This document shows positions 15,906 through 39,953 of a stretch of 64,000 nucleotides of DNA, piece by piece. The notes beneath the pieces were generated by a model. The model ran no database searches. It was not told the DNA's origin and saw nothing but the letters and a program-made list of their open reading frames with translations. How positions within the stretch are numbered: position 1 is the first letter of the stretch; the number at the start of each line of letters is the position of its first letter. Source of the DNA: Mesorhizobium sp. WSM4904. Lineage in GTDB: Bacteria > Pseudomonadota > Alphaproteobacteria > Rhizobiales > Rhizobiaceae. Where the stretch lies: positions 6,271,001 through 6,335,000 of the forward strand of contig NZ_CP121354.1 in NCBI RefSeq assembly GCF_029674545.1, written 5' to 3'. The position numbers were made by a program, and so were the translations under genes.

Positions 15906-16085
15906 GTCAGTCTCTCCTTCAGGAGTCGAGCGGACGAAACCGGCCAAACGGCGCCTGGGAGGAGCGCCGTTCCGGATTCCATTCACATGCTTTCATGTGG
16001 ACGATGCCAATTTGCCATCACGTGATTGATTAATCCAACGAATGTTTTTAATCTGTAGCATCAACATCAATGATGGGTTTGACCG

Positions 16086-17042
16086 ATGAAAGCGCCTCTC
16101 GATCTCGATCAGTTGCAGACCTTCATCTCGATCGCGGACACCGGCAGCTTCACCCGGGCAGCCGAAGAGGTGCACCGGACGCAGTCGGCGGTGTCGATGC
16201 AGATGCGCCGGCTGGAGGAGCGGATCGGCAAGCCGCTGTTCGAAAAGGACGGCCGCACCAACAAGCTGACCGAGGAAGGCGACAGGCTGCTTTCCTATGC
16301 GAGGCGGCTGATCTACCTCAACCGCGAGACGCTCGCGGCCTTCGACGACCAGCGGCTCGAGGGCACCATCCGTATCGGCACGCCGGACGACTATGCCGAC
16401 CGCTTCCTGCCCGAGATCATGGCGCGCTTCTCGCGCTCCAACCCGCGTGTGGAGCTCACCGTCATCTGCGAGCCGACGCCCGGGCTGGTCGAGCACATCA
16501 AGCGCGGCAATCTCGATCTCGCGCTGGTGACGCACAACGACACGCGCGGCCAGTCGGAAGTGGTGCGGCGCGAGCCGCTTTTGTGGGTCACCTCGGCCAA
16601 CCACGCCACGCATGAGCAGGAAATCCTGCCGATGGCGTTCGGCCGGCCGAACTGCATCTGGCGGCGCGCGGCCGTCGACGTGCTCGACCGGCAGAATCGC
16701 GAATATCGCGTGCTGTTCTCCAGCTTCTCGGCCACCGTGATCACCGCCGCCGTGCTTTCAGGCCTCGCCATCTCGGTGCTGCCGGAATGCGCGCTCAGGC
16801 CAGGCATGCGCGTGCTTGGCGAAGCCGACGGGTTCGACACGTTGCCCGATTGCCGCATCGGCATCATGCGCGGCCAGACCTCGCAGCCGGAGATCGTCGA
16901 TGCGCTGGCCAGGCACATCGCGGAAAGCCTCGACAACATTTCCGTGCCGGTCGGCGAAGAGACGGGAAGCTTCGACTTCGCCGCCCTCGCCTATGCCAAG
17001 ATGAAGCGGACCAAGCCCAGCCAGATCCTGCCCGGCTGGTAG
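16086..17042 (+). CDS. LysR-family regulator, LsrB/VtlR type
   Basis: A 318-residue LysR regulator. Seen: the N-terminal helix-turn-helix LDLDQLQTFISIADTGSFTRAAEEV through QSAVSMQMRRLEERIGKPLF (residues 4-60), then the substrate-binding fold with GTIRIGTPDDYADRFLP near residue 95. The N-terminus resembles LsrB/VtlR of rhizobia and Brucella as I remember them; orthology is not proved, since genomes may carry several paralogues. The divergent DUF1127 gene 180 bp away supports a VtlR-like circuit. The promoter gap contains the palindrome GATTAATC (16028-16035), a candidate binding element. Confidence 0.85.
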   Translation: MKAPLDLDQLQTFISIADTGSFTRAAEEVHRTQSAVSMQMRRLEERIGKPLFEKDGRTNKLTEEGDRLLSYARRLIYLNRETLAAFDDQRLEGTIRIGTPDDYADRFLPEIMARFSRSNPRVELTVICEPTPGLVEHIKRGNLDLALVTHNDTRGQSEVVRREPLLWVTSANHATHEQEILPMAFGRPNCIWRRAAVDVLDRQNREYRVLFSSFSATVITAAVLSGLAISVLPECALRPGMRVLGEADGFDTLPDCRIGIMRGQTSQPEIVDALARHIAESLDNISVPVGEETGSFDFAALAYAKMKRTKPSQILPGW

Positions 17043-23038: not shown

Positions 23039-24907
23039 TTGTTTGGGTATTTTCCTTTGCACACGGAAGCAAAAAACAGCGCGCCGGAGCGCGGCAGATC
23101 GTTTGCCCATGTGGCGGAAGCCTCCTGGGGAAAGGGTCTCAGCACCCTGCTGCGCATCATGCGGATGACGCTGCGCCATCCCTGGCAAGTTGCGATCACC
23201 ATCGTTTCGACCTTCATTGCCGCGACGCTGCAGCTTCTCATTCCGCGCCTGCTGGGGCGCGCCATCGATCAGGCGCAAGGCGTGATGGCCGAAGGCGCCG
23301 GCACCGCCGCGCAGCACGCGCTTTGGAACACCGCCCTGACACTTTTGGTCGTCAGCGTCCTGCGCGGTCTGTTCACCATGGCGCAGAACTACTATGGCGA
23401 GGCCGTCGGCCATCAGACCGGCTATGAATTGCGCCTGGCCTTCTATGAAAAGATCCAGCGCCTGAGCTTTGCCTTCCACGACAGGGTCCATACCGGCGAT
23501 CTGATCACGCTCGGCCTGCTCGATCTCGACGGCGTGCGCATGTTCTTTTCCACCGGCGTCTTGCGCGTGGTCCTGCTCGGCGTGCTGATCGGCGTCGGCG
23601 CCTATCTCCTGATCAGCACAGATCTCGTGCTCGGGCTGCTCAGCCTGAGCTTCGTGCCTTTCGTCGCCTGGCGATCATCCGTCACCCAACTCAGACTACG
23701 CAGCACCTGGCTGACGCTGCAGCAGCGCCTGTCGGTGCTGAGCCGGGTCATGGACGAGAACCTCGGCGGCATCCGTGTCGTGCGCGCTTTCGCGGCGCAA
23801 CGGCACGAGCTGGAAAAATTCGACCGCGCCAAGCAGGATGCGCTCGATCTCGCCAACCAGCGCGTCGATATCCGCGTCAGCAACACCAGCGCCATGAACT
23901 TCTCGTTCCTGGCGGCCATGGGCCTCGTGCTCTGGTTCGGCGGCCAGAAGGTGATATCGGGCCAAATCAGCGTCGGCACGCTGGCACAGTTCCTCACCTT
24001 CATGACCATCCTGCAGATGCCGGTGCGCCAGCTCGGCCTGATGGTCAACTCGTTCGCCCGCGCCTCGACCTGCGGCACGCGGCTGTTCGAGTTGCTCGAC
24101 ACCGAGCTCGACATCCAGGACGCGCCCGGCGCCAGGGACCTCGTCGTCACCGAAGGCGTGCTGCGCTTCGACGATGTCAGCTTCCATTATCCGGGCTCGG
24201 GACGCCCGACATTGACCGGCATTTCCTTCGAGGCCAGGCCCGGCCAGACCATCGGCATCGTCGGCCCGCCGGGCAGCGGCAAGTCGACCATCGCGCATTT
24301 GATCCCGCGCTTCTACGATGTGAGCTCGGGGACCATCACCATCGACGGCCACGACATCCGCCAGGTCACGCTGCAGTCGTTGCGCAAGGCGGTCGGCGTC
24401 GTGCAGCAGGACGCGTTCCTGTTCACGACCTCGATCGAGAACAACATCGCCTACGGCAATCCGTGGGCGCGCGAGACCCGCATCGAGAGGGCGGCCGAGT
24501 CCGCCCAGCTGCACAACTACATCATCGGACTTCCGGCCGGCTACACCACGGTCGTCGGCGAACGCGGCGCGTCGCTTTCGGGAGGCCAGCGGCAGCGCCT
24601 GACCATCGCCCGCAGCCTGATGCTGCGGCCTTCGGTGCTTGTCTTCGACGATTCCACCGCGGCCATCGATGCCGGCACCGAACAGCGGATCCGGGCGGCA
24701 ATGAAGCGCTTCGCCAAGGACCGCGTGACGCTCATCATCTCGCACCGGCTGAGCTCGCTGATGCATGCCGACCAGATTCTGTTCGTCGAGGGCGGCAGGA
24801 TCGTCGAGCGCGGCACGCATGAGGAACTGCTGGCGCTCGGCGGGCGCTACCGTGCGCTCTACGACCTGCAGCTGCGGCCCGACGATACCGCACAAGGAGC
24901 CGCGTGA
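23039..24907 (+). CDS. ABC exporter subunit, degenerate-site half
   Basis: A 622-residue type IV (ABCB-like) half-transporter: six transmembrane helices in residues about 45-340 and a C-terminal ATPase. Walker A is GPPGSGKST (from 409) and the signature is canonical LSGGQ (513-517), but Walker B reads VFDDSTAAID: the catalytic Glu is replaced by Asp538. The partner 24907-26799 carries the complementary defect, so the two form a heterodimeric exporter with one working and one degenerate ATP site. The start is uncertain; I use the TTG at 23039 (MFGYFPLHTE), no strong ribosome-binding site is seen. The substrate is unknown; drug or lipid exporters have this layout. Confidence 0.88.
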   Translation: MFGYFPLHTEAKNSAPERGRSFAHVAEASWGKGLSTLLRIMRMTLRHPWQVAITIVSTFIAATLQLLIPRLLGRAIDQAQGVMAEGAGTAAQHALWNTALTLLVVSVLRGLFTMAQNYYGEAVGHQTGYELRLAFYEKIQRLSFAFHDRVHTGDLITLGLLDLDGVRMFFSTGVLRVVLLGVLIGVGAYLLISTDLVLGLLSLSFVPFVAWRSSVTQLRLRSTWLTLQQRLSVLSRVMDENLGGIRVVRAFAAQRHELEKFDRAKQDALDLANQRVDIRVSNTSAMNFSFLAAMGLVLWFGGQKVISGQISVGTLAQFLTFMTILQMPVRQLGLMVNSFARASTCGTRLFELLDTELDIQDAPGARDLVVTEGVLRFDDVSFHYPGSGRPTLTGISFEARPGQTIGIVGPPGSGKSTIAHLIPRFYDVSSGTITIDGHDIRQVTLQSLRKAVGVVQQDAFLFTTSIENNIAYGNPWARETRIERAAESAQLHNYIIGLPAGYTTVVGERGASLSGGQRQRLTIARSLMLRPSVLVFDDSTAAIDAGTEQRIRAAMKRFAKDRVTLIISHRLSSLMHADQILFVEGGRIVERGTHEELLALGGRYRALYDLQLRPDDTAQGAA

Positions 24908-26799
24908 TGGCGGACCCGCGCGACGACGACAAGGAAGACACAAGCGGCCGGCCGGCAAAGGCGGTCGTCGGCTCGCATCGCGACGAGGAAGAGGTCTTCG
25001 GCAAGGCCTACGATCCGCGCGTCGTGCGGCGCATCTGGGGCTTCGTCAGACCGTACCGGACCCGGATCTTCATCTCGGTCGCGGCGGTGCTGGTGTTCAC
25101 GCTGACGCAACTGACGATCCCGCTGGTCATCCGCTACGCCATAGATCACGGCATGGCGGCGGGCAGGCTCGACAGGTCGGTGATGGCCGGGGCGACCGGC
25201 GCTTTCGCGGCGGTCATCCTTGTGAACTATGCAGCCAGCTATGTGCAGGAGAGCGTCGTCGGCAAGGTGGCCGAGAACGTGCTTTCCGACCTGCGCCGCG
25301 CCATGTTCGGCCATCTGCAGCGGGTCTCGCTGAGTTTCATGGACAAGACCGAGGTCGGAAGGCTGATGTCGCGCCTGCAGGGCGACGTCAATTCGATGCA
25401 GGAGTTCCTCGAAACGTCGGTCATGTCGGTGGGCGACATCGTGCTTTTGTTCGGGATCGTCAGCGTCCTTTTGTGGCTGGATTTTCGGCTCGGCCTGCTG
25501 ACGCTGTCGACCATGCCGATGCTGTTCATCGTTCGACTGTTCTGGCTGCCGCGCGCCAAGGTCGCCTTCATGGCCGCGCATGAGACCAACTCGATCGCCA
25601 ACGGGGCGCTGGCCGAAGGCATTCACGGCGTGCGCACCGTGCAAAGCCTCGAGCGCCAGCACGTCAATTTCGACCTCTATGACGAGAAGGTTGTGGCCAA
25701 TCTCAAGGCCCATCTGAGGTCGGCCAAATACGCGCAGGTGATGGTGCCGATCGTCGACACGCTGACCGGGATCGCCATGGCGACGGTCATCGTCGTCGGC
25801 GGCTCGATGGTGCTGTCGCACGGCCTCGACGTCGGCGTCATGGTGGCGTTCCTGTTCTACATCCAGCGCTTCTTCGACCCCATCCGCTCGCTCACCATGC
25901 AGTATAGCGTCATGCAACGCGCCATGGCCTCGGGGCAACGCATCTCCGAAGTGCTCGACGTGCCGGTGGACGTCAGCGACAGGCAAGGCGCGGTGGCGCT
26001 GTCGCGCGACATGGACGGCTCGGTCGAGTTCAGGAACGTCACCTTCGGCTACCGGCGGAACCAGCCGGTGCTGAAGAATGTCAGCTTCCGCGTTAATCCT
26101 GGCGAGACGGTCGCGCTGGTCGGTCCGACCGGATCGGGCAAGTCGAGCTCCATGGCGCTGGCGCACCGGTTCTACGACGTGTGGTCGGGCCAGGTTCTGG
26201 TCGGCGGACACGACGTGCGCGACCTGACGCAGGATTCGCTTGGCGAACAGATGGCAATGGTCCTGCAGGAGCCCTTCCTGTTTTCCGGAACGGTGCTGGA
26301 GAACATTCGCTATCACAAGACCGGTGCCTCCCGCGAGGACGTGGTTCGCGCGGCGAAAGCCGTTGGCGCGCACGATTTCATCGAGCACTTGCCCGACGGC
26401 TACGACACCGAGCTCGAGCAGCGCGGCGGCAATCTCTCGCTCGGCCAGCGCCAGCTGATCAGTTTCGCGCGGGCGCTGGTGGCCGACGCCAAGATCCTGG
26501 TGCTCGACGAGGCCACGGCCAGCATCGATTCCTACACCGAGATGCTGATCCAGAAGGCGCTGACAAAACTGCTGGAAGGGCGAACCGGGCTCGTCATCGC
26601 CCACCGGCTGGCCACCATCCGCGGCGCCGACCGCATCATCGTGCTGCAGAACGGCGAGATCGTCGAAAGCGGCAACCACGAGCAATTGATGGGGCGAAAA
26701 GGCCTCTACGCCCGGCTCTACAACATGAACTACGCCTCGTTCGACGACATTTCCGAGGAGGAGATGGGAATGGACGCGGTGGTCGGCAAAGCGACGTGA
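24907..26799 (+). CDS. ABC exporter subunit, catalytic half
   Basis: The 630-residue partner of the preceding exporter subunit, with an acidic N-terminal extension of about 40 residues, six transmembrane helices (about 55-340) and an ATPase domain. Walker A GPTGSGKSS (from 406) and Walker B LVLDEATASID with catalytic Glu535 are intact, but the signature is LSLGQ (510-514), not LSGGQ. The ATG at 24907 overlaps the stop of the first subunit (TGATG), so translation is coupled; a GTG one codon earlier is also possible. It ends convergently about 60 bp from the alpha/beta-hydrolase gene of the carrier-protein operon. Confidence 0.9.
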   Translation: MADPRDDDKEDTSGRPAKAVVGSHRDEEEVFGKAYDPRVVRRIWGFVRPYRTRIFISVAAVLVFTLTQLTIPLVIRYAIDHGMAAGRLDRSVMAGATGAFAAVILVNYAASYVQESVVGKVAENVLSDLRRAMFGHLQRVSLSFMDKTEVGRLMSRLQGDVNSMQEFLETSVMSVGDIVLLFGIVSVLLWLDFRLGLLTLSTMPMLFIVRLFWLPRAKVAFMAAHETNSIANGALAEGIHGVRTVQSLERQHVNFDLYDEKVVANLKAHLRSAKYAQVMVPIVDTLTGIAMATVIVVGGSMVLSHGLDVGVMVAFLFYIQRFFDPIRSLTMQYSVMQRAMASGQRISEVLDVPVDVSDRQGAVALSRDMDGSVEFRNVTFGYRRNQPVLKNVSFRVNPGETVALVGPTGSGKSSSMALAHRFYDVWSGQVLVGGHDVRDLTQDSLGEQMAMVLQEPFLFSGTVLENIRYHKTGASREDVVRAAKAVGAHDFIEHLPDGYDTELEQRGGNLSLGQRQLISFARALVADAKILVLDEATASIDSYTEMLIQKALTKLLEGRTGLVIAHRLATIRGADRIIVLQNGEIVESGNHEQLMGRKGLYARLYNMNYASFDDISEEEMGMDAVVGKAT

Positions 26800-26857: not shown

Positions 26858-28642
26858 CTATGGTGCCTGGAAGGACGGGCTGGCCATCGCGTGCATCGGC
26901 TCGGAACGAGCGTAGCCGTCACGCCTGACGCCATGATCGATCAGGCGGGCGATCACGGCACGCCGCGCGTGATACGGCGTCAGCGTGTGGTCGGCATTCG
27001 GCAGCGAGACCCTGGTCACGCCACGAATGCTGTCGAGCCGCTCTTCCTCGGACCCGAAATGGCGGGCGATCTCCTTCAGGCTCAGGTCGCCTTCCGAGGT
27101 CACCATGAGAACCCGCACGCCCTGGCCGCAAAGGTCGCGCATCCAGCGTTCCACCCGGTGCTGTCCCAGCAGCGCGGCCGGATGCAGCATCGACAATGTC
27201 GACTTGATCGCCTCCAGCCCGCGCCGCACAATTAGCCGGGCGCGGCGAGAAGCGATCCCGCGCCATGTCGAGGCGTTCGGCTTGCCGGTCTCCTGCATGG
27301 CGGCGTTCTGCCCGCGCACGGCCTTGGACGTCTCGTAAGTCTTCCAGACCGCCATCTCCAGCGCGTAGGAACTGTTCCAGGCGAAGCAGAGCGGGTTGAT
27401 CATGGTCAGCGTCCGCACACGCCGATCGGCCCGTGCGGCGTGAAAAGCCTGGTATGCGCCGGCGCAGGTGCCGACCAGGCCGACAGCAGGGTAGCCGGCT
27501 CGTTCCATCCAGTCGATCGCGCGGCTTACGTCATGGCGCGTACGCCGGTCATAGAGGAACAGGCGCCCTTCCTCGGTCTGATCGCTGAGGCCAAGTCCGG
27601 GCAGGTCGACGCGCAGCGAAGCGACGCCTTCCGCCGCCAGGTCTCGCGCCGCTTCCACCGTGCCACGCGCCCAACCGACATGCGGCACGCCGCCGGCGTT
27701 GAGAAAGATCACCGGCTCGGCCGCAGCCTGGCGTCGGCGTGGCCAGCAAAGCACGCCGCAGATCATCGGCTCCGGTCCGATCAGGACCGGCTTTTCGGTG
27801 TAGTGCGGACCGTCCAGGGTCTCCGACGCAGCCCGCGGCGTGGCCTTTGCCGCGACTGCTTCACCTGCATGGCCGGCCATCCAGGCTGCGCAGCGATCAA
27901 GAACGGCGGCCGGAATCCGGTTGGCGGTCGGGTCGCACATCAAGAGAGGATAGCCATCGAACTCGGCGGTGGTGATATCCGCAGGCCCCGCCCCTCCCCC
28001 ATGAATTTCGTCGGCGGCAAGCGGCTTGCCGTTTGTAAGCACCAGCATCGGCAGGGATTGAAGGCTTGCCGCAGCCTGCCGCCAGTCGAGCGTCGAGAGA
28101 TCGCCTAGCGTCTCATGCGTAATCCGGAAGCCGGCAGCCTCGCGCCCCTCGGTGAAAGCCCCTTCGCACGACGAACGGCTGGCCAGCGGCGCGTCGATCA
28201 TGCGCGACATGGCCGTGATCTCGCGGACATAGGCCTTGCCGGAGGACGGCGGCGCGAGCAATACGAGACCGGCCACGTCGTCTCGTCCGGCCGCCGCCAG
28301 CGGCGCCAGCAGAGCGCCGAGCCGGAAACCGACCAAAATGACGTCCGCCACGCCGCAATCCCGTTTCAGCCGATCGATCGCGGCGCCTATGCTCTCCGTC
28401 CACCGTTGCACCTGACCGGGCGTTGAATGATCCCCGGCGGCATTGCCGCAGCCGGGATAGTCGAACTGCAGCGCCGGCAGATCGTTTTCGGCCGACTTGT
28501 CGGCCAGCAGCCTCAGGAAACGCCGGCTGCACAGGTCCTCGTGGCCATGCGCCCCGGCGATGACGACACCCCGACCACGCCGTTCGCTGCCCTTGCCTTC
28601 ATGAAGCCAGCCGATCGTGTCGGCGAAGACTATCCCCCTCAT
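26858..28642 (-). CDS. Tandem alpha/beta-hydrolase protein with atypical nucleophile positions
   Basis: A 594-residue protein made of two alpha/beta-hydrolase domains, roughly residues 1-270 and 285-575. Domain 1 has the elbow VGFRLGA (105-110): Arg107 sits where the catalytic Ser should be, as in some exopolysaccharide-associated hydrolase-like proteins. Domain 2 has VGTCAGA (390-396) with Cys393 in that place, and a C-terminal His in [10 protein letters not shown] near 555 that could complete a Cys-His-Asp triad (dienelactone-hydrolase-like). So domain 1 looks non-catalytic and domain 2 may act as a Cys acyltransferase or thioesterase. It is the last gene of the carrier-protein operon, overlapping the GH2 gene by 4 bp (ATGA). 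No signal peptide, so it is cytoplasmic. Confidence 0.8.
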
Positions 28643-31179
28643 GCCATGCTCCCGGTGGGCTCCAGCGCCCGCGTGATCTCTGCCCCAATTTCTGAATTGT
28701 CGGCCGCTTGCGGCGCATCGTAGGCCACCTCGCGATCGCTATTCAGCGCCGTCACGATGCCGGCCGGCGTGGACGAGGCCGGCCCGTCAAGGCCAATTTC
28801 CTTCACCGCACCCGGCATCAGGTGGAAGCCGTTCTCGCGCGGGAGGAACAGCCCATCCTCGATGGCGATGTGATAGGCGGCCCGCCTGCAGGCGAGCCGC
28901 ATGCGCCAGCCGTCTTTCGCGCGCACCAACCGCGCCGACAGGCCGACATCGCGTCGCGCGATCATGGCACCGGGAAGCACATGAAAGGCTTCGGCCAGGA
29001 TCTCGCCGTCACGGCCTTCAAGCCTTGCCACGGTTACCTCGTGGCCCGCCGGACCGAAGCGATAGGCATAAGACAGATCGAAGAAGGCGCCGAGCAGCGA
29101 GAACGCCGACAGGGACCGTGCCTCGCGCGCCTGCAGGGTGACCGGCTGGCGCGCGCTCACCACAGGGGTGACGCCATCGCGCAGACAGGCAAGCGACAGC
29201 GTCGCCTCGACGGCCTTCGCCCCGTCATTGACGAGATGCACGCCCAGCCCGTTGACGCCCTCGTCGCTCAGCGTCAGCCTGAGCGGCGTGAAGGCGCGCC
29301 TCAGCGCATGCCAGACCGATTTCGGCCGACCGGTGGAATCGACGGCGCCCCACCCTGCGCCCGGGCGCAGATCCTTCCAGAAGAACAGCAGCGCACCCGC
29401 CGTCGGCGAGGCCGGTCTGCGCCATTCATCGATCGTGCGCTCGACCAACTCGGCGGTGACGGCGCGCGAGACGTCGAGATAGCGCGCCGGATCCTCCATG
29501 CGCAGCCGGCGCGCATCGACGCCGAACAGCGCCTCCAGATAATGCTCGCGCACATCCTCGAAATCCCAAGACGCACCTGCGTCGCGCGGCACGCCGGCCT
29601 TCCAGCGCGGATCGTGGCTGGGCGGAACGGGCAGATGCTCATCCAGCGTCGCCTGTTCCGGCACGTTGGCGAAGGCGAGGCATTCGCTGGCGAAACGCAC
29701 TTCTGTGCGGCGTGCGTCCTCCAGCGGCCGGCAATAGGCGCCGACGCCATAGTAATGTGTCGGGCCGCCATCCGCGGCAAAGGGCAAGCTGCCGCCGGAA
29801 GGCGACGAGGACACCAGCGCCAGATCGGGCAGGATCGCCTGCGCGACCGGACGCACGACATCGTCGAACCAGGGCGTTGGATCCATCGCCGCCGGCATGC
29901 CGAGCATCGCAGCCTGTTGCGCCACCTCGCTGCCGCCGCACAGCACCGCCAGCGACGGCGAATGCCGAAGCCGCTTCAACAGGTTGTCCACCTCGCGCGA
30001 GAGCGCCGCCCGCCAGGCCTCGCTTTTCGCCGGATAGTCGAAATTGGCGAGCATCAGGTCCTGCCAGACGAGAATGCCCATCTCGTCGCACAACTCGTGG
30101 AAGGCATCGCCTTCGTAGGCGAAGGTGCCGCCGATCCGCAGCATGTTGACGCCGGCTCGGCGCGCGAGGTCGAGGTCCGGCTCGATTTCGGTCCGCCCGC
30201 ATGGCAGCCGCACAGGATCGGACGGCGTCCAGACCGCGCCACGGCAGAACACCGGCACGCCGTTGACGACCAGGCGGAAATCACGCCCGTCGGCGCCGCG
30301 ATCGATCTCGATGCGGCGAAACCCGACCCGGCCGAGCCGGCTGCGCACCGTGCCGAGCGTCGCCATCACTTCGTGCAGTGCCGGCTCGCCATGACTGTTC
30401 GGCCACCATGGGGCGACATCGGCAATGGCCAATTCCGCCGTCAGCCGGGTGGGTGCCTCGACCTTGAGGCGCGCGCACACTCCAGCGCAGCTGACATGCG
30501 CGGTTTGCGTATCGTCGAAGCGTTCAGCGAGAGTGATCGCAACGGCAAGATGCCCGGTCGTACCGTCGAGCCTGGCGCGCATGTCGGCATCGAGGATGCG
30601 CTGCCCGCCATTCTCGCGGATCAACCTGACGGGACGCCACGGCCCGACGACATCGAAGTTCGGACACCAGCCCGGCATATGGCCGATCAGGGTCGTGCGC
30701 ACCAACCGAAGCCGCTGATCGTCGATCATGCGAGGGCGCCAGCGGGCGCGTGGACCGGTCGCCGTTTCCAGATGGCGGTCGAGGCTGCGCAAGGCGATGG
30801 CGAGACGCTCGCCGCCTGAAAGGACTACCGCTGCCTCATGGCGCTCGAACATCGAGGTCGAGGTGAGCAGCAGCCGGTCGTCAAGCCAGACCTCGGCTAT
30901 AGTCGCCAGACCCTCGAACACAAGCCGCACCGGACCAGACGCATCGAGCCTGCGGCTGTACCAGACATCGCGGTCGTGCAGCGGGGTCGGCTGCTTGCGG
31001 TCCCAGCGGCCATGCTTTTCCAGTGTGCCCGCAGCCGTGCCGGGACAGGCCGCGTCCAGCCATTCGGCATTTGCGTCGATATCATGCGGCAACGCCCAGG
31101 CGCCGGCCGCCGAGACGGCCATCCGCCAATCCCGGTCCAGCAACTCGGCAGAGCCGGCGATCGATACCGTGGCGTCCAT
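28639..31179 (-). CDS. Glycoside hydrolase family 2 protein (beta-mannosidase-like)
   Basis: An 846-residue GH2 protein: N-terminal jelly-roll sugar-binding domain ([25 protein letters not shown] near residue 80), immunoglobulin-like domain, then the TIM barrel from about residue 310 ([43 protein letters not shown]). The likely acid/base is Glu418 in [10 protein letters not shown] (usual family form has Asn before the Glu; here it is Ser), and the likely nucleophile Glu499 in RFASECLAF. No signal peptide, so it acts on an internal glycoside. Substrate unknown: beta-mannosidase is the nearest familiar type. It overlaps the hydrolase gene by 4 bp and follows DUF1839 by 36 bp. Confidence 0.85.
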
Positions 31180-31215
31180 TCCCCCCCCATGCTCAAATGC
31201 GCCTCGGCCGGTCCG

Positions 31216-32229
31216 CTAGGCCGCCTTGGAGGCGACACCCGCCATGCGGGCGTCCAGCACGTCCATCACCGTGTCGTAGGCCTGTGCCATTGGCGCGATA
31301 GCCTCGGCCAACCCGTCGAAGCGCTGCCGCGCCATCGCGCGGGCGAGCTTGAACTGCATGACCTTGGCGCCATCGGCAATGTCGCCGGCGGCTTGCGCCG
31401 CCTCGGCAAGGCAGGTTTCGCCGTGCTGCCCCAGCCATTCGAGATGACTGCCGAGGAGTTCGAAATTCGCGCCGACCTGCCGTAGCGTGTTGAAGGCATA
31501 GGTGTGGAAATAGTCCGGCGAGCGCGTCGCCAGCGTTTCAGCGTGGCGGCCGAACGCGGCCGCATAGGCGCCGAGCGGATTACGCTTCGGCCGCCGCTTC
31601 AGGTGATGCGCAAGCAGCGCCGCCGCGGTCCCGACCGCATCTCGGGCCGGGCGCGTGGCGTCGAGCTTCACGAATTCCGCATAAGGAAACAGCGGCAGGC
31701 CGCCGGCCGACACACCGTCCCCCGACATATCATCCCATTGGCCGAAGATGCCGTCATAGTCTTCGCCCTCGAGCGCAAAGTAGCCGTCATTGTGGAAGTA
31801 GCGCATCTGCCGCCCCTTGGGGTCGAGCGCATTGATGCCGACCGTGGTCTTGGAATGGCCGCTGCGATAGGTGATGCCCTTGGTGTCGGGCAGGTAGAAG
31901 GCGTCGACCTCGACCAGCGGCAGCCGGCCGAGTTCGACTTGCGCAAGCACATGCGACTCCAGCCGGTCGAAGACCGCCAGTTCCTGGATGTCCAGCCCCG
32001 CCAGCCTCTGCAGGTCGGCGGTCGGGAACTTGAAGAAGGTGAACTGATCGCCCTCGAAATCCTGCGCCACGGTGAAGCCGAGCGCCGCGACCGGATCGTG
32101 GCCGGTCGCGTGCAGCACCTCGATCAGGAGATCGACATAGCAGTTCGTCTGCGGCCAACGCCTGTTCGGATCGTGCAGCCGGTGCGGCCGGTAGCTGGCC
32201 GGATCGAGGCCCGCGATAGCGTTCAGCAT
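31216..32229 (-). CDS. DUF1839 family protein
   Basis: A 337-residue cytoplasmic protein of the DUF1839 family, without known reaction. Visible conserved-looking blocks: NCYVDLLIEVLHATGHDP near residue 28, DFEGDQFTFFKFP near residue 55, EVDAFYLPDTKGI TYRSGH near residue 100, and YFHNDGYFALEGEDYDGIF near residue 128. The start ATG at 32229 comes one base after the stop of the carrier-protein ligase, implying coupled translation; the longer open frame overlaps that gene. Association with amino acid:[carrier protein] ligases is what I recall for this family, so it probably uses or transfers the aminoacyl group. Confidence 0.8.
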   Translation of the reverse strand: MLNAIAGLDPASYRPHRLHDPNRRWPQTNCYVDLLIEVLHATGHDPVAALGFTVAQDFEGDQFTFFKFPTADLQRLAGLDIQELAVFDRLESHVLAQVELGRLPLVEVDAFYLPDTKGITYRSGHSKTTVGINALDPKGRQMRYFHNDGYFALEGEDYDGIFGQWDDMSGDGVSAGGLPLFPYAEFVKLDATRPARDAVGTAAALLAHHLKRRPKRNPLGAYAAAFGRHAETLATRSPDYFHTYAFNTLRQVGANFELLGSHLEWLGQHGETCLAEAAQAAGDIADGAKVMQFKLARAMARQRFDGLAEAIAPMAQAYDTVMDVLDARMAGVASKAA

Positions 32230-32230
32230 A

Positions 32231-33154
32231 TCACACGCTCCACAGCACGTCGCGGACCGCCGCCGGCCAGGCGTCCGCGTCCGGCCCGTGATGGCGGAAC
32301 AGCGCCAGCGCCACACGCTCCAGCCCGAAGCCGACGCAGGCCGAATGGCAGAACTCCCCGTCGGCGAACTTCAAGCCCCAGGTCCGGCCAAAATGGTCCT
32401 GGTGATAATTGAAGCTCAAACAGGCGGTCGGCTTCTCGATGCTGGTCACCGGGATCAGCAGCTCGAATTTCAGGCCCTGGTCGCGCTGGTTGTTGGCCAT
32501 CATCTTGCCGCCGCGGCCGAAGAACGGATCGTTGGCAAGATCGACCTCGCAGGGCAGGTCGAGCGACTCGATCATCGCCTTGCCGCGCTTCAGCCAGCTT
32601 TCGCGGAACGCGCGCACCTGCTCGGCCGTGCCGATCTTGACGAACTCGCGCATGCGGAAGAGCTGCATGCGCGCCGGGTCCTTCGACGGCTCGTGGCGGA
32701 AGCAATAGGACGAGAGCTCGAACAGCAGGCCCTGCGCCGGCACAGGGCCGCGCGCGGCGACGGTGGGATAGAGCGGGTAGCAGGCGGCCGGTGTCAGCGC
32801 GACGTCCGTCGCCTTCTGCAGCTCCGTCCAGTCCCCGCCGTCGGCCATCATGCCGAGCAGTTGCGCATGCTCCCGCTCGCCTCCCATGAAGGAATGTACA
32901 CAGCCGGCAAGCTGCGGGAAGCTCTTCATGTAGCCGCTCTTCTCCAGCGTCGCACGGCTCATGCCCGGCGGAAAATGGATGCGGGTGGCCTTGTCGGGCG
33001 CGCCGAGCCGGGTGACGAGACGCTCGAACCGCTCGATCACTTCCTCGAACGCGCCCGAACGGCCGTAGAGGCCGTCGATGCCGGATTCGAATAGGATGCC
33101 GTTCTCGAACAGGCTGTCGAGCAGCGACTTGGAGTCGAATGTCTTGGCGTCCAT
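32231..33154 (-). CDS. Amino acid:[carrier protein] ligase (seryl-tRNA synthetase homologue)
   Basis: A 307-residue class II aminoacyl-tRNA synthetase-like catalytic domain with no tRNA-binding arm. Proteins of this kind (first described from Bradyrhizobium) activate glycine or alanine with ATP and load it onto the phosphopantetheine of a small carrier protein, not onto tRNA. Seen: motif 2 CFRHEPS (151-157), motif 3 [12 protein letters not shown] (275-286), and zinc ligands placed like those of the family, Cys125 (AACYPLYP), Glu170 (RMREF) and Cys273 (HSACVGF); the 45- and 103-residue spacings agree with what I remember for the Bradyrhizobium enzyme. The carrier protein and an acyl-CoA-dehydrogenase-like gene precede it in the same operon. 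Confidence 0.92.
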
Positions 33155-33155
33155 C

Positions 33156-34361
33156 TCAGCCCCCCAGGCCGGTGTCGAAGCGGCTCATCAGCATGAGCGT
33201 CGCGGTATTGGAAAGGATGCGGTCGTTGGAGATCATCACCGGCGCCGAAGTCACGTCGCGCAGATGCCGGCCGACGCTGAACGGGGTGCCGTTCTTGTAG
33301 CCAAGGATGCCGTTGACCAGCATGGCCAGACGCGCCACGGCGCCGGCCTTCTCGCTGGCCGCGACCTTCAGCGCGTTGATCTCGGCAGCGAAGCCGATCG
33401 AAGACAGCGCATCGTCGTCGCCCTTGGCCGCCTCGAAACGATGGATGGCGGCCGTCAGGTGCCCTTTCATCTCCTGCAAGAGGGCTGCGGCCTCGGCCAG
33501 CCTCAGCGCGCCCGGCGGCATGGCGTCGGGCTGCTTGCGCGCCGCCGCCTTGACGAAGGCCTGCGCCCGATTGAAGGCGTCGGCGGCGATGCCGAACCAG
33601 GTCGCCGCCCAGAAGATGTGCGAGCTGGCCAGCATCGACTGCGCCGCGATCTCGGAGAACGGCTTCGGGAATATCTGCGTCGCCTCACCCGTGGCGACGA
33701 GATGAAAACCGTCGGAGCAGGTGCCGCGCATGCCGAGCGTGTCCCACACCGACGTGCGTTCCAGCGTGCGGTTGCCATCGGCCGGGATCACCACCATCAC
33801 CTGATCGGAGCTTGCCGCATCGGGGGCGCGACGCGCCGTGGCGAGGATGGCGTCGGCATAGTTGCCATAGGAGATGACGGTGGCTTCCTTGGTCAGCGCG
33901 AAGCGCCCGCCGATAACCTCGACCGCGCAGATCGAATTACGCAAGTTGCCGCCGATGCCGGCCTCCGTCGTCGCGGAGGCCATCAGAAGCTGCTCGTCGG
34001 CGATGCGCCGCATATAGGCGCGGTGCCAGTCGCTGGCGCCGCCGTGAGTGACGAAGCTCGACGTCTTGATCTGGTGCATGGCATAGATCATCGCGCTCGA
34101 GCCGCAGGCCTGGCCGAGCTGGACGATGAGATCGGCGATCTGCATCGTGCCGAGCCCCTCGCCGCCAAGCTCGACCGGGATCGCCACGCCGAGCAGCCGC
34201 TCGCGCTTCAGCGCCTCGATCGTCTCTACCGGGAAACGGCCTTCCTTATCCACGGGGTCGGCATGGCCGGCGGCGATCTCGGCGACGCGGCGCATGCGTT
34301 CGGTTGCGGCTTCCGGCGCCTGCGCGAGCGAAGCCGCCTCGATCTTTCTCAACACGTTCAT
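33156..34361 (-). CDS. Acyl-CoA dehydrogenase-like flavoprotein
   Basis: A 401-residue acyl-CoA dehydrogenase fold protein. Seen: N-terminal helical domain with [24 protein letters not shown] near residue 55, flavin-site region [20 protein letters not shown] near residue 125, and a C-terminal helical bundle. The usual catalytic Glu near the C-terminus is not obvious to me. In related carrier-protein systems such enzymes oxidise an aminoacyl group while it is tethered to the carrier. Placed between the carrier protein (4-bp gap) and the ligase (1-bp gap), it should act on the loaded aminoacyl thioester; that is inference. Confidence 0.85.
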
Positions 34362-34365
34362 GACT

Positions 34366-34611
34366 CTATGCCGCCTTGCGGGTCAATTGCGAAACGGCGT
34401 CCGCGATGCTGGCGAGCGAAGAGAAGGTGCGCCGCGTCAGCATCGTCTCGGGGAATTCGATGTCGAATTCCTCTTCGAGCGCCAGCATCATCTGCACCGA
34501 GGCGAAGGAGGTCAGCCCCGCGTCGTAGAGATTGGCGTCGTCGGCGAGCGCGCCGAAATTTAGCGGAATCATCGGATGCTGCTCGAGCAGCGAGCGAATC
34601 TGGTCGATCAT
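34366..34611 (-). CDS. Acyl/aminoacyl carrier protein
   Basis: An 81-residue acidic carrier protein with the phosphopantetheine site DAGLTSFASVQ, the modified residue being Ser35. It is the first gene of the operon and the expected acceptor for the amino acid:[carrier protein] ligase two genes on. I start it at the ATG at 34611 (MIDQIRSLLEQHP), behind an AAGGGTGGGG stretch; the 14 earlier in-frame codons add a basic tail not typical for the family. The site sequence differs from the DSL of fatty-acid ACPs, which supports a dedicated carrier. Confidence 0.9.
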   Translation of the reverse strand: MIDQIRSLLEQHPMIPLNFGALADDANLYDAGLTSFASVQMMLALEEEFDIEFPETMLTRRTFSSLASIADAVSQLTRKAA

Positions 34612-34934: not shown

Positions 34935-36134
34935 TCAGTCGAAGAAGCCCTTATCCTCTTCCTTGAGATACTTCCCGGCTGCTTCGACGTCGATATCGAG
35001 TCCCAGCCCCGGCGCTTCCAGCAAATCCACCATGCTGTCCTTCACGATCTGCGCCGGCAGGCCGACCACCAGATCCTCCCACCACGGGTCGGAGGCGCTC
35101 GGGTACTCGAAGGCGATGTAGTTGGCCGGCAAGGTTGCGCAGACATTGATCAGCGCGCCGAGACCGAGCAGGCCGTTCGCGGTGCCGTGCGGCGCCATAA
35201 GGATCGAGTGCATGTAGGCGTGCTCGGCGACCCATTTGAGCTCGGCAATGCCGCCGATGTCGGCGGGATCGGGGCCGATGACGCGCACCGCCTGCGTCTC
35301 GATCAGTTCCTTGAAATTGTGGCGCAGATAGATCTGCTCGCCCGTGTGGATCGGCGTCGAGGTGGAGGTGGTCAGTTCCCGATAGGCCTGCGGATTGACC
35401 CACGGCACATAGTCGCCGGTCAGCATGTCCTCGAGCCACATCAGATTGTACTTCTCGACCGCGCGAGCGAACTTGATCGCATCGGGCAGCATCCAGCCCG
35501 GGCCGCAGTCGAGCGCCAGGCTGACCTTGTCGCCCAGCACTTCCTTCATCGCCGCCACGCAGTCGAGCATGTGATTGAAACCGCGCTCGCTGATCACGCC
35601 CTGATCCATGGCGCCGTGATAGCCCGCCTTCTTCTGCGTCACGCCGTAGTGGAAGCCTTCTATCGTGTCCTTCATGTTGGAGTGGAACGAGATCCCTTGC
35701 TTGACCATGAAGAAGTTCTGCGGCTGCTCCATCATCCATTTGACGTCGGCGGCGTAGTCTTCCGGCCGGTCGCCCGTGCGCTTGCGGCGGATCGAGCCGT
35801 TGTAGACGCGCACCTTGTCGCGCACCTTGCCGCCAAGCAGTTTGTAGACCGGCACGCCCGCGGCCTTGCCGGCTATGTCCCACAGCGCATGCTCGATGGC
35901 GCTCACTGCCGCGCCATAGGGCTTGAACGAACCGCGCTGGCGGATCTTAAGCATCACGCGCTCGACGTCGGTCGGGTCCTCGCCGATAAGCGCCTCGCGG
36001 AAATGCAGCACAAAAGGTTTGAGATAGGTTTTTGTAAACTCGACTTCGCCCAGGCCATAGAGGCCCTCATCGGTGACGACGCGAACGATGGGGTGCTTGC
36101 CGATGACGGCGCAGCGCAGGTCGGTGATCTTCAT
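34935..36134 (-). CDS. Enolase-superfamily dehydratase 1 (mandelate racemase/muconate lactonizing type)
   Basis: A 399-residue member of the mandelate racemase/muconate lactonizing enzyme group. Seen: N-terminal capping domain (MKITDLRCAVIGKHPIVRVV), and barrel metal ligands Asp in LALDCGPGW, Glu in WLEDML and Glu in HTGEQIY, with a possible catalytic His in MAPHGTANG. These enzymes remove water from, or epimerise, sugar acids. The exact substrate cannot be read from sequence. It is the last gene of a five-gene minus-strand operon, 9 bp after the NIPSNAP gene. Confidence 0.85.
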   Translation of the reverse strand: MKITDLRCAVIGKHPIVRVVTDEGLYGLGEVEFTKTYLKPFVLHFREALIGEDPTDVERVMLKIRQRGSFKPYGAAVSAIEHALWDIAGKAAGVPVYKLLGGKVRDKVRVYNGSIRRKRTGDRPEDYAADVKWMMEQPQNFFMVKQGISFHSNMKDTIEGFHYGVTQKKAGYHGAMDQGVISERGFNHMLDCVAAMKEVLGDKVSLALDCGPGWMLPDAIKFARAVEKYNLMWLEDMLTGDYVPWVNPQAYRELTTSTSTPIHTGEQIYLRHNFKELIETQAVRVIGPDPADIGGIAELKWVAEHAYMHSILMAPHGTANGLLGLGALINVCATLPANYIAFEYPSASDPWWEDLVVGLPAQIVKDSMVDLLEAPGLGLDIDVEAAGKYLKEEDKGFFD

Positions 36135-36143
36135 GGCGCAGTC

Positions 36144-36470
36144 CTATCTCACAGACGAGAAAGCTGTCGGCGTGAGCAGCTGGCTGCTGATATTGGCAAT
36201 GATCTGCCCGTCGCGCTCAGACTCGTCCCGGGCCCTGTGCCATGCCGGATCGGTGACGAAAGCCGCCCATTTCGCCTCACGCTCGGCCAGCGATTCCCAG
36301 GCGAGGAAATAGGTGAGGCGATTGCTGTTTTCGCCGATCGCCGTGGTGAAAAACCCGGCTTGGCGGATGCCATGCCTCTCCCAGATGGCCAGCGTTTGGT
36401 CGGAAAAGCGCTTGAGCAAAGCCGGCAGCCTGCCCGGCAGGCAGTCATAGATACGCAGTTCGTAGATCAT
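36144..36470 (-). CDS. NIPSNAP family protein
   Basis: A 108-residue dimeric-barrel protein of the NIPSNAP family (MIYELRIYDCLPGRLPALLKRF at the start, LTYFLAWESLAEREAKWAAF in the middle). Family members are common beside sugar-acid and aromatic catabolism genes but have no settled reaction. The ATG at 36470 follows GGAAGAAACGGA. It sits between two enolase-superfamily dehydratases. Confidence 0.85.
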   Translation of the reverse strand: MIYELRIYDCLPGRLPALLKRFSDQTLAIWERHGIRQAGFFTTAIGENSNRLTYFLAWESLAEREAKWAAFVTDPAWHRARDESERDGQIIANISSQLLTPTAFSSVR

Positions 36471-36573
36471 GGTTTCGTCCGTTTCTTCCTTCGCCTCTCC
36501 CCTTGGGAGAGGTCGACACGAATGGTCTGTCGTCGGCCCTGTGAGCCTGGGGGATGAGGGCAGAGGGCCCGGG

Positions 36574-37932
36574 CTAACTCCAGGTCCGGTCCCAGCTATA
36601 TTCATTGTCCCAATGCTCGGTGGATTGCCATATCCCCGTGACACCGGGCTGCAGATGCTGGCTGATCACCTCGTCGACCACATCGTCGATCCCCAGGCCT
36701 GGCTTGTCCGGAACGGTTATGAAGCCATCCTTCACCAGCGGCTTGGGGAGACCTGTGACGATGTCGTCCCACCACTCGACATCGGCGGAGTGGTATTCGA
36801 GCGCCATGAAGTTCTCGGTCGCGGTCGCGACATGCGCCGCGGCCATCGCGGCGATCGGACTTTCGGCCATGTGGATGGCCATGGCGACGCCATGGTCCTG
36901 AGCCATGTCGCCGATCTTCTTGGTCTCGAGGATGCCGCCGCTGGTGAGCAGGTCCGGGTGGATGACGGAGAGGCCGCCGCTCTTCAGCAGCGGCTCGAAG
37001 GCCTCCTTGAGGTAGATGTCCTCGCCCGTGCAGATCGGCACCGCGGTGGCCTCCTGCAACCGCCGGTACTGCTCGGTGTACTGCCAGGGGATCACATCCT
37101 CGAGCCAGGCCGGCACGTATTTCTCGATACGGCGTGACAGGCGTATGCCGTCCTGCAGCGAAATGTGGCCGACATGATCGATGGCCAGCGGGATCTCGTA
37201 GCCGATGACCTCGCGAACCTCGTGGATATACTGCTCCAGCAGGTCGATCCCTTTTTCGGTGAAATGCAGGCCCGTGAACGGGTGCTGCACGTTCTGCGCA
37301 TCGTAGGCGAGGTTGCGTGCCTTACGCTCCTCAAGCGCGCCACCGCGGCCGCGTGGATTGGCGTAAAACCCTTCGAGCGCGCCGGCGGGCGCGACCACGG
37401 CGCCCGGGATATGGGCGATCTGCATCAAGCCCAGGTCCATCTTGAGGAAGGCGAAGCCGCGCTCCATGCGCGCCTTGAGGCGCTTGCCGGTTTCGGTGCC
37501 GCTCGGCTTCTCCGCGTCGGTATCGCAGTAGACGCGCACGTGATCGCGAAACTTGCCGCCGAGCATCTGGTAGATGGGCACGCCATAGGCCTTGCCGGCG
37601 AGATCCCAGAGCGCGATTTCGACCGCCGAGACGCCACCGCCTTGGCGGCCGTGCCCGCCGAACTGCTTGATGCGGCGGAACAGGCGGTCGATGTCGCAAG
37701 GGTTCTCGCCAAGCAACCGGCTCTTCAGCATCAGCGCATAGGTGGCGCTGGCGCCGTCGCGCACCTCGCCAAGCCCGACGATGCCCTGGTTGGTGTAGAT
37801 CTTGAGCAGCGCCGAGGCGAACGGCGCGCCGACGATCTCGGCCACCCGCATGTCGGTGATGCGAAGGCCGGACGGCTTGGAATTCGTGTTGACCCGATTG
37901 AGGGCCTCGTCGGCTCCATCGGTTTTTGGCAT
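36574..37932 (-). CDS. Enolase-superfamily dehydratase 2
   Basis: A 452-residue mandelate racemase/muconate lactonizing enzyme, longer than its neighbours because of an extended N-terminus (about 22 residues) and C-terminal tail after DKPGLGIDD. Metal ligands: Asp in LAIDHVGH, Glu in WLEDVIPW, Glu in CTGEDIY; possible catalytic His in AIHMAESP. A probable sugar-acid dehydratase; the substrate is undetermined. It follows dehydratase 3 by 60 bp and is separated from NIPSNAP by 103 bp that include the hairpin CCTCTCCC-CTT-GGGAGAGG. Confidence 0.85.
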
Positions 37933-37992
37933 GGCCTATCCTCGCTTTGTTTGGCGGGGCTTGTTGCCCCGCGTGCTGGGCATGGAGGGTTG

Positions 37993-39159
37993 CTAGGCCA
38001 GCTCGATCTCGTGGGCCTGCAGATAGTCGCGGTTCATCTCGACGCCGAGACCAGGCTTCGACGTCAGCTTGAGGCTACCGTTCGAAACGTTGAGCGGTCT
38101 GTCGATGAGGTGATCGTATTTGGAGAGATCCCACTCCGACGTTTCGAGCTTGTAGAAGTTGGGAACCGTCATCATCACCTGCGCTCCCGCAACCACGTTG
38201 ATCGGTCCCGCGGCGTCGTGCGGCGAGACGGGGACGTAGTAGGCTTCGCAGAGGGCGGAAATCTTCTTCAGCTCGGTAATCCCGCCGGTCCAGGTCACGT
38301 CGGGCATGATGTAGTCGGCGAGCTTGTTCTCGAGCACCGGCACGAAATCCCATTTCGTGTGGCCGCGCTCGCCCCACGAGATAGCGGCGCTGACCTTCTC
38401 ACGCACCTGCTTGAGCGCGTTGAGGCTCTCGGGCGGGCAAGGCTCCTCGAACCAATCGATCTGGCCCGCTTCCTCGAGGCTCCGACAGAGGCGAATGGCG
38501 GTGGGAACATCGAAGCGGCCATGCGCATCGATGAGGATGTCCACATCGGGTCCGGCCGTTTCGCGGATCAGGGCCGTCAGCTCGGCCGCTTCGCGTTCGT
38601 CCTTGCGCGTCATGCCACCGTCGAGGTAGCCGTCCCGCCTTTCGCGGGCCACGCCATCGACGCTGGGGCCCTGGTGGGGAAAAGGATCGAACTTGAGCCC
38701 GGTGTGTCCGGACTCGACAATATCCCGAATCTCGCGGACCACCGCCTCCTTGCTGGTGAATTTGGCCTGGTTGGGATGGGTGTAAAGAGCGATTTCCTCC
38801 CGTACCGGTCCGCCCAGCAGCTCGTAGATCGGCTTGCCGAGAACTTTGCCGCGGATGTCCCAGAGGGCTATATCGATGGCGCTGACGCATTCGACGGCGG
38901 CGCCGCGGCTGCCCATGTAGGTGAAGCTGCGGAAAATCTTGTGCCAGAGATGCTCGATACGCGCCGGGTCCTCACCTGTCATGGCGGTACCGATCTGCCG
39001 CAGGATGGTGCACAGCGCGCGGTTGGCGAGCTTTGTCGTGGTGGTGATCTCTCCCCAACCGCTCACTCCCTCGTCGGTCGTCACTTCGACGAACAGATAC
39101 TCTCCCCAATAGGAAGCATCGGACTTGATCAGCCACGGCCGGATACTCGTGATCTTCAT
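37993..39159 (-). CDS. Enolase-superfamily dehydratase 3 (galactonate-dehydratase-like)
   Basis: A 388-residue enzyme closest in feel to D-galactonate dehydratases: Asp ligand in LIDAHGRFD, Glu in WFEEPCPPE, Glu in SWGERGHTK and His in VSPHDAAGP. The start at 39159 (MKITSIRPWLIKSD) gives the normal capping domain; the frame is open further but overlaps the regulator gene. It is the first enzyme gene after the GntR gene (56 bp), and likely a dehydratase of an aldonic or uronic acid. Confidence 0.85.
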   Translation of the reverse strand: MKITSIRPWLIKSDASYWGEYLFVEVTTDEGVSGWGEITTTTKLANRALCTILRQIGTAMTGEDPARIEHLWHKIFRSFTYMGSRGAAVECVSAIDIALWDIRGKVLGKPIYELLGGPVREEIALYTHPNQAKFTSKEAVVREIRDIVESGHTGLKFDPFPHQGPSVDGVARERRDGYLDGGMTRKDEREAAELTALIRETAGPDVDILIDAHGRFDVPTAIRLCRSLEEAGQIDWFEEPCPPESLNALKQVREKVSAAISWGERGHTKWDFVPVLENKLADYIMPDVTWTGGITELKKISALCEAYYVPVSPHDAAGPINVVAGAQVMMTVPNFYKLETSEWDLSKYDHLIDRPLNVSNGSLKLTSKPGLGVEMNRDYLQAHEIELA

Positions 39160-39215
39160 CTCAACTGCCTTTATCTGAAGTTTCCAGGGGTGCCGATGTT
39201 CTAAGATTGGGCGTT

Positions 39216-39953
39216 CTATCCGGCCCGCGCGGCGTTGCGGGCACGCATGTGTTCGAGGATGTGCCGTCCGGAGCCCTCGACATGGCGGGCGACGAGTTCG
39301 GCCGCCTTGTCGGCATCTCCCGCCTTTACGAGCGCGATGAGCTCGCGGTGCTCGCGAATGATCGCGGCACGGCGCGCGAGGGTGAAATCGAAACGCCGGC
39401 TCACGGCGCGCAGCACTTCGCGATGCTTCCACCAAAGCTCGGCGGCATGGCGGTTGTAGTGCCGCTGGTACATCACGGTATGGAAGGCGGTATCGAGCTC
39501 ACTGTGCCGGAATGTGTCGGCGAAGTTGTTTTCCTCGATCAGGCCTTGGAGACGTTCGAGTTCCGCGATGTCCTCGCCAGTGGCCATGTTCACGAACCAT
39601 CGCGTCAGGGCCGGCTCGATCAGAACGCCGATCTCGTAGATATCGCGCACGAAATCCTGATCTATGGGTCGCACGCGCGCTCCGCGGTTGGGGGCAAAGA
39701 TGACGAAGCCCTCGCCGCGCAACAGCTGCAAGGCCTCGCGCACGGGATTGGTCGAGGTGCCGTGACGCCGGGCGAGATCGCTGACCACAAGCCGTTCGTT
39801 GGCGGCCAGCCGCCCCTCGATGATGTCTTCCCTGATCAGTTCATAAAGCGAGGCGCCCTCGCTGGAGGCCCCTATGGGATCAATCCCCGCAGGTGGCTTC
39901 GCTTTAAAGTCGCTTGTTTCGGCCAAAGCCCGCTCCCCTAGGCTGATACACAT
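39216..39953 (-). CDS. GntR/FCD family regulator of the sugar-acid island
   Basis: A 245-residue GntR repressor: winged helix at about 35-100 (ANERLVVSDLARRHGTSTNPVREALQLLRGEGFV) and an FCD effector domain (FHTVMYQRHYNRHAAELWWKH near 160). It heads the minus-strand dehydratase operon and lies opposite the transporter operon, so it likely controls both from the 185-bp gap. The effector is probably the imported sugar acid or a pathway product. Confidence 0.88.
   Translation of the reverse strand: MCISLGERALAETSDFKAKPPAGIDPIGASSEGASLYELIREDIIEGRLAANERLVVSDLARRHGTSTNPVREALQLLRGEGFVIFAPNRGARVRPIDQDFVRDIYEIGVLIEPALTRWFVNMATGEDIAELERLQGLIEENNFADTFRHSELDTAFHTVMYQRHYNRHAAELWWKHREVLRAVSRRFDFTLARRAAIIREHRELIALVKAGDADKAAELVARHVEGSGRHILEHMRARNAARAG

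Follow-up and report, generated by a model that had tools for sequence, protein, structure and literature searches.

A conserved carrier-protein operon of Mesorhizobium sp. WSM4904 and its possible role in aminoacyl transfer to an amino sugar

Amino acid:[carrier protein] ligases are relatives of class II tRNA synthetases that use glycine or alanine as substrate, and the family members Bll0957 and Atu2573 have reportedly been described by Mocibob in 2010 and 2013. The amide-forming enzyme CtaG and the lincosamide enzyme CcbD, which makes an amide with an amino sugar, both yield small molecules. Why tRNA-synthetase relatives aminoacylate carrier proteins is still called unknown in the available part of a 2022 review, and among the matches listed in our search of open-licence papers none deals with the function of the ligase. 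In the same literature, DUF1839 came up in one paper and the locus tags Atu2571, Atu2572 and Atu2574-Atu2577 in two. A note in proof by Aravind, de Souza and Iyer (2010; Biol Direct 5:48) lists, in its available part, an acyl carrier protein (ACP), a redox enzyme, the conserved open reading frame (ORF) Atu2574 and a glycosidase in the ligase neighbourhood, from which aminoacylation of a cell-surface amino sugar was predicted. Here we analyse an operon that encodes such a ligase together with a carrier protein, a flavoprotein, a DUF1839 protein, a glycoside hydrolase of family 2 (GH2) and a tandem alpha/beta hydrolase. The operon lies in a window of 64,000 nucleotides (the whole stretch of DNA analysed), corresponding to bases 6271001-6335000 of the 6.65-Mb, single-contig genome of Mesorhizobium sp. 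WSM4904, where DUF1839 and the ligase each have a single profile match.

We document gene order, co-occurrence, folds and active-site residues of this gene set. On balance, the operon probably encodes an aminoacyl-transfer pathway that resembles lincosamide synthetase but employs a tRNA-synthetase-derived ligase.

Five genes form a conserved unit

A real unit is formed by the first five genes, which code for carrier protein, flavoprotein, ligase, DUF1839 and GH2; the tandem hydrolase often accompanies them as an accessory outside the invariant core. One sample comprises the best 80 of at least 576 stretches encoding a ligase relative, drawn from named genomes with an alignment of eight ligases as query; it is biased towards ligases near that of the window, because the best-scoring ones were retained. 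In 76 of these 80 loci the five genes occur in the same order on one strand. In three of the four misses (L052, L066 and L108) the contig breaks off within the module, and the fourth (L048) consists of carrier and ligase only. Among the matches listed, the closest named relatives by ligase are the Mesorhizobium loci L034 and L035 (97 and 96% identity).

A less biased sample of 249 genomes of the order contains the ligase in 48 and DUF1839 in 36 genomes, and all 36 fall within the 48 (hypergeometric p = 2e-33, ignoring kinship among genomes). In all 36, DUF1839 follows the ligase in the same orientation, with 32-455 bp between the matched stretches. GH2, which was sought in the 48 ligase genomes and in five further ones, is found in 36/36 genomes with DUF1839 versus 0/12 ligase genomes without it (Fisher p 1.4e-11, likewise ignoring kinship), and in all five further genomes. 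The GH2 match is split across two contigs in genome G504, contains a stop in some genomes and is present on a different contig in G186. Outside the class, but in the same phylum, four genomes of family f243 carry the five-gene module as well. The ligase is sparse, exceeding the cut-off in 5/240 genomes of the class and 28/398 of the phylum. Individual loci show further arrangements: in L026, carrier, flavoprotein, ligase and DUF1839 are followed by a peptidyl-prolyl isomerase and ArgJ, with the GH2 gene of this genome on a different contig, and L117 harbours, close to a complete module, a second DUF1839 ORF (15732-16952) on the other strand.

A profile built from alignment A4 detects the hydrolase around 62 of the 80 loci. 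In 43 of them it lies no more than 6.5 kb downstream of the ligase, on the ligase strand in 14 and on the opposite strand in 29; in nine it is further downstream on the ligase strand, and in ten upstream. It is not found in the surrounding DNA of 18 loci, several of which are short contigs, nor near the module in the f243 loci (0/4). A single invariant unit of six genes is therefore rejected. An earlier note on this DNA had joined six minus-strand ORFs in one operon and staked the idea on their conservation as a set; this holds for the five genes, including the coupled GH2, and less strictly for the hydrolase. Its coordinates and intergenic gaps (4, 1, 1 and 36 bp; GH2 and hydrolase overlap by 4 bp) are correct, and family searches agree with each label (Table 1). 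Scans for promoters (1 found vs 1.0 expected) and for terminators (7 vs 4.9, sd 2.4) gave numbers close to chance.

Table 1. Operon genes and adjacent exporter genes, in positions of the window; SerRS, seryl-tRNA synthetase; ACAD, acyl-CoA dehydrogenase; AF2, AlphaFold2; pLDDT, predicted local distance difference test; ABC, ATP-binding cassette
Feature	Position	Strand	Matches and models
Carrier protein, 81 aa, Ser35 phosphopantetheine site	34366..34611	-	NF005480/PRK07081 97.7 bits (cut-off 72), PF00550 PP-binding
ACAD-fold flavoprotein, 401 aa, lacking the canonical catalytic Glu (Ile377)	33156..34361	-	PF02771/PF00441; AF2 pLDDT 91.4
Amino acid:[carrier protein] ligase, 307 aa, class II SerRS-derived	32231..33154	-	NF005479/PRK07080 493.5 bits (cut-off 357)
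DUF1839, 337 aa, predicted carrier-protein-dependent amide synthase, papain-like (C30, T129, H146)	31216..32229	-	PF08893 411.5 bits (cut-off 22.5)
GH2 glycosidase, 846 aa, beta-mannosidase branch, Ser417-Glu418, nucleophile Glu499	28639..31179	-	N-terminal domain PF22666
Tandem alpha/beta hydrolase, 594 aa; N half without nucleophile, C half Cys393/Asp519/His552	26858..28642	-	Alpha/beta hydrolase matches, both halves
MsbA-type ABC exporter genes, an overlapping pair convergent with the hydrolase gene	23039-26799	+	

The exporter pair is not kept beside the module in relatives, with one weak partial match among 13 loci. Directly upstream of the operon, four enolase-superfamily genes (mandelate racemase type), a GntR/FCD regulator and a binding-protein ABC importer (34935-39435, minus strand; 44677-45840, plus strand) likely constitute a sugar-acid catabolic island.

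Predicted functions of the encoded proteins

The carrier protein retains its Ser35 site in 70/70 aligned carriers, as had been read from the sequence, and also matches DltC-type models weakly. Equally well founded is the Cys-Glu-Cys set of the ligase: C125, E170 and C273, presumably the zinc ligand positions, are invariant in the eight aligned ligases and align with solved Bll0957. The window ligase matches the solved ligase 4h2w with 348 bits. Its residues ~216-226 are nearer to 4h2w than to 3mey, two solved chains that differ in this segment, perhaps owing to an engineered swap of carrier recognition.

A second ligase context is represented by seven loci lacking DUF1839 and GH2 (L028, L029, L120, L125 and L127-L129), where ligase and flavoprotein are paired and the carrier match is weak or missing; the distant ligase relatives L030-L033 are excluded from these counts. 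In L028, the only annotated locus of this group, the neighbours are AMP-binding, short-chain dehydrogenase, esterase, pyridoxal-phosphate enzyme and homoserine succinyltransferase-like genes. Solved Bll0957 (3mey) scores 400.6 bits with the L029 ligase versus 332.7 with the window ligase and, being nearer to the second context, may serve another pathway. A further locus, L027, harbours ligase, carrier and hydrolase, and DUF1839 was not found there. Since the second context pairs ligase and flavoprotein in the absence of DUF1839 and GH2, a general front end seems to consist of carrier, ligase and flavoprotein, while the branch of the window appears to be defined by DUF1839 and GH2.

The AF2 model of DUF1839 (pLDDT 89.7) shares its overall fold with CcbD, CtaG and AziU2-U3, CcbD being nearest; by sequence, no relative of solved structure was found up to E 1. 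The predicted N-terminal nucleophile C30 is present in 67/67 rows, and T/S129 and H146 in 66/66, compared to a Cys-His-Glu/Asp triad in enzymes of the CcbD/CtaG type. This CcbD-type fold supports DUF1839 as the likely transferase of the tethered amino acid, a role suggested earlier. None of the six operon proteins has an AMP-binding Pfam match, and the ligase is related to SerRS.

In a profile comparison with solved ACADs, the RD-x6-MI segment of the flavoprotein aligns with RD-x6-YE of the dehydrogenases. Ile377 takes the place of the Glu of 8i4p, and Ile or Val occupies this position in 84/84 rows with a letter. The catalytic Glu of short- and medium-chain acyl-CoA dehydrogenases (SCAD/MCAD type) is replaced, and a canonical acyl-CoA dehydrogenase is rejected for this reason. 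His248, Trp251 and Trp255 are kept in 84/84 sequences. The relatives include DnmZ, KijD3, a nitrososynthase and many dehydrogenases, of which the dehydrogenases score best. A mechanistic likeness to the amino-sugar N-oxygenases KijD3 and DnmZ is suggestive only, and it is with low confidence that we regard the flavoprotein as a monooxygenase sooner than a dehydrogenase.

The best solved relatives of GH2 are beta-mannosidases. The acid/base Glu418 and the nucleophile Glu499 are found in 73/73 rows with a letter (two of 75 are gapped), and since both are kept, GH2 appears to be active. Like GH2_13 beta-mannosidases, the protein has the nucleophile Glu and a loop-2 Trp (Trp317, in 72/73; Tyr in solved 2je8, Trp in 5n6u), but Ser417 (73/73) aligns with the Asn of the Asn-Glu doublet in 2je8. 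A plain beta-mannosidase is rejected on account of this Ser-Glu doublet. In the accessible part of a 2025 paper on GH2 subfamilies (PMC12243196), Asn-Glu is the usual motif and Trp marks the beta-mannosidase subfamilies; Ser relieves a clash with the C2 amino group in glucosaminidases (Ser-Asp), and Ser-Glu recurs in GH2_14. Judged by these residues, the combination of Ser and Trp suggests a manno-configured 2-amino sugar as substrate. No signal peptide was seen by eye, and the enzyme is probably cytoplasmic. A clustering study from 2007 (CLUSS; PMC1976428) describes, in the part available, subfamily SF_22, which sits in the beta-mannosidase branch, includes an Agrobacterium tumefaciens protein, has a “different catalytic doublet” and was credited with a new substrate. 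The GH2 of the window would belong to this subfamily.

Both halves of the tandem hydrolase are alpha/beta hydrolases, as proposed; the presumed Cys-type nucleophile is confined to the C half, where Cys393, Asp519 and His552 occur in 24/24 aligned proteins. At position 107 of the N half, Arg (12), Gly (11) and Ser (1) are found, and the nucleophile is lost in 23/24. In 12 loci the hydrolase ORF exceeds 1000 aa and represents a flippase-hydrolase fusion: the first ~500 residues match the L131 flippase (45-47% identity) and the remainder is the hydrolase pair. The flippase label is PF13440, assigned by Pfam to the two proteins scanned (L126 fusion, L131 separate ORF). A separate flippase ORF is located in 14 further loci, overlapping or at most 40 bp from the hydrolase in, e.g., L131 and L059.

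The best named relatives of the two halves are exosortase-A hydrolases 2 and 1 (TIGR03101, TIGR03100), with scores well under the curated cut-offs (73.5 vs 168.45 and 72.9 vs 202.75 bits). Hydrolase 1 occurs in 14/143 genomes of the class of G719; all 14 have the ligase TIGR03098, which lies at most 8 kb away in eight genomes and on different contigs in the other six. A profile search finds a carrier-like ORF preceding hydrolases 2 and 1 in the exosortase loci (clear in 3/4, weak in 1/4), and a motif search there yielded no acceptable carrier. Because exosortase loci also pair a carrier-like ORF with a ligase, the hydrolase pair appears to accompany carrier-tethered chemistry in two settings.

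The acceptor and competing explanations

We infer the amino acid, its oxidation, the acceptor and the roles of GH2 and the hydrolase as follows. The ligase would activate a small amino acid, glycine or alanine, and load it onto the carrier protein, where the ACAD-fold flavoprotein may oxidise it, acting as a monooxygenase with greater likelihood than as a dehydrogenase. Cys30 of DUF1839 would take over the acyl group and form an amide with the amine of an amino sugar. GH2 may recognise a glycan containing a 2-amino sugar and trim, recycle or proofread it, and the Cys hydrolase pair could edit the acylated carrier or act on the acylated glycan near the membrane. At least in many relatives, the acceptor might be a building block of an exported polysaccharide. 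The earlier proposal that an aminoacyl carrier-protein system is tied to a glycosidase, with a sugar as likely acceptor, gains support from the conserved gene set; nothing was found in favour of the glycoside as a mere protecting group. In a more specific and clearly less probable version, the tethered amino acid would be oxidised at N or C and joined by an amide bond to a sugar of the 2-amino-2-deoxy-mannose type within an exported polysaccharide, the Ser-Glu GH2 would remove or proofread this sugar, and the Agrobacterium product would be a glycan linked to phenazine tolerance.

Clusters of glycosyltransferases, flippases, GumK-type or GH5 proteins, labelled by the annotation of one member each, are found near 34/80 loci, compared to 0/7 second-context and 0/4 f243 loci. 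In f243 a different cluster, annotated in L115 as bacterial sugar transferase, lies beside the carrier or within a few kb in 3/4 loci, and directly upstream of the carrier in L115. In Agrobacterium the ligase, which we take to be Atu2573, is followed by DUF1839, GH2, hydrolase and an ABC exporter, with a UDP-sugar dehydrogenase at a greater distance. The exporter Atu2577 and the UDP-GlcNAc dehydrogenase Atu2582 belong, according to the accessible part of a published study (PMC9790009), to an uncharacterised glycan linked to phenazine tolerance. Gene counting with doubtful small ORFs omitted fits the positions of Atu2577 and Atu2582.

Several observations weigh against the aminoacyl-transfer scheme. 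The fold that DUF1839 shares with CcbD is no proof of a shared function, and AziU2/U3 form an aziridine and are no amide synthase. The AF2 model of the flavoprotein is about equally near to dehydrogenases and monooxygenases, and the fold comparison could not separate the two. Scored polysaccharide clusters are missing from the surrounding DNA of 45/80 loci, including the closest relatives L034-L041, as well as from all four f243 loci, and once a Wzz cluster is added the count becomes 35/80 with three of the seven second-context controls (and 0/4 f243 loci) scoring as well. No glycosyltransferase is present among the 28 window proteins scanned, and the flippase was found in 3/12 genomes tried and not in that of the window. 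Furthermore, published modelling assigns DUF1839 a Cys-(Thr/Ser)-His triad, with His and Thr/Ser swapped, versus Cys-His-Glu in CcbD, and due to this difference its chemistry could deviate from that of CcbD.

The same enzymes might instead produce a soluble aminoacyl-amino-sugar pseudo-glycoside of the mycothiol or lincosamide kind. We regard this as rather doubtful: CcbD and CtaG do make small molecules, the lineage of the window has neither a scored polysaccharide cluster nor a glycosyltransferase among the proteins scanned, and GH2 has no secretion signal visible by eye, yet the 12 flippase-hydrolase fusions, the clusters at 34/80 loci and the sugar-transferase genes of f243 speak for export. 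DUF1839 could also esterify a sugar hydroxyl, comparable to teichoic acid D-alanylation or lipid A glycylation, since carrier-to-glycan-hydroxyl transfer is known from Dlt and Alm and the carrier weakly resembles DltC. Against this unlikely alternative, the nearest fold relative CcbD makes an amide with an amino sugar, CtaG forms an amide as well, and the Ser-Glu doublet of GH2 points to an amino sugar.

Similarly improbable is a pathway of carrier, flavoprotein, ligase and DUF1839 only, with GH2 and the hydrolase as unrelated passengers. The hydrolase is indeed missing near 18/80 and all four f243 loci, and GH2 resides on a different contig in G186, but the strict association of GH2 with DUF1839 (36/36 vs 0/12), which persists in G186, speaks against it. 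Modification of elongation factor P (EF-P), often encoded near the module, is scarcely credible and was rejected, since most loci have no EF-P neighbour (78/108). EF-P, a class II synthetase and a radical-SAM protein, presumably EpmA and EpmB, occur in 30, 26 and 21 of 108 clustered loci, one member of each cluster having been scanned. Yet EF-P modification is already explained by EpmA/EpmB, a glycosidase has no obvious role in it, and we ascribe the synteny to shared ancestry. These genes mostly lie just upstream of the module, at about 5-8 kb in, e.g., L059, L069, L073 and L126.

Relation to described systems

The pathway, which the earlier note put forward as a candidate for an undescribed one, was outlined in the 2010 note in proof, whose available text proposes the same scheme. 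As far as our searches show, the new elements are the relation to CcbD, the coupling of GH2, the distinction of two contexts for the ligase and, for the hydrolase, its fusion to a flippase and its parallel in exosortase loci. The likely next enzyme and its reaction can now be named: an amide synthase of the CcbD type that uses an amino sugar. In the genomes sampled, the glycosidase is a constant companion of DUF1839. The open question thereby becomes an assay of two or three proteins. If the proposal is correct, lincosamide-type condensation would no longer be confined to antibiotics and would include a module that many plant-associated bacteria share, and a surface-glycan acceptor would imply a widespread, so far unrecognised glycan modification.

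Compared to known systems, the operon contains the same ligase, carrier, redox enzyme, conserved ORF and glycosidase as the neighbourhood described in Biol Direct 5:48, where the ORF is uncharacterised and the available text of the note mentions no fold, GH2 residue analysis, coupling count or hydrolase. With Bll0957 the ligase of the window shares the Cys-Glu-Cys set, along with its match to solved 4h2w (348 bits), but Bll0957 is nearer to ligases of the context without DUF1839 and GH2. GH2 belongs to the branch of the beta-mannosidases, yet Ser-Glu replaces their Asn-Glu. The exosortase-A hydrolases 1 and 2 also occur beside a carrier-like ORF and a ligase, as separate proteins there and as one fused ORF here. 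Finally, lincosamide synthetase (LmbC/LmbN/LmbD, CcbC/CcbZ/CcbD) employs an adenylation protein of the nonribosomal peptide synthetase type, whereas the operon encodes a class II tRNA-synthetase relative; the triad order differs according to the published model, and the operon harbours GH2.

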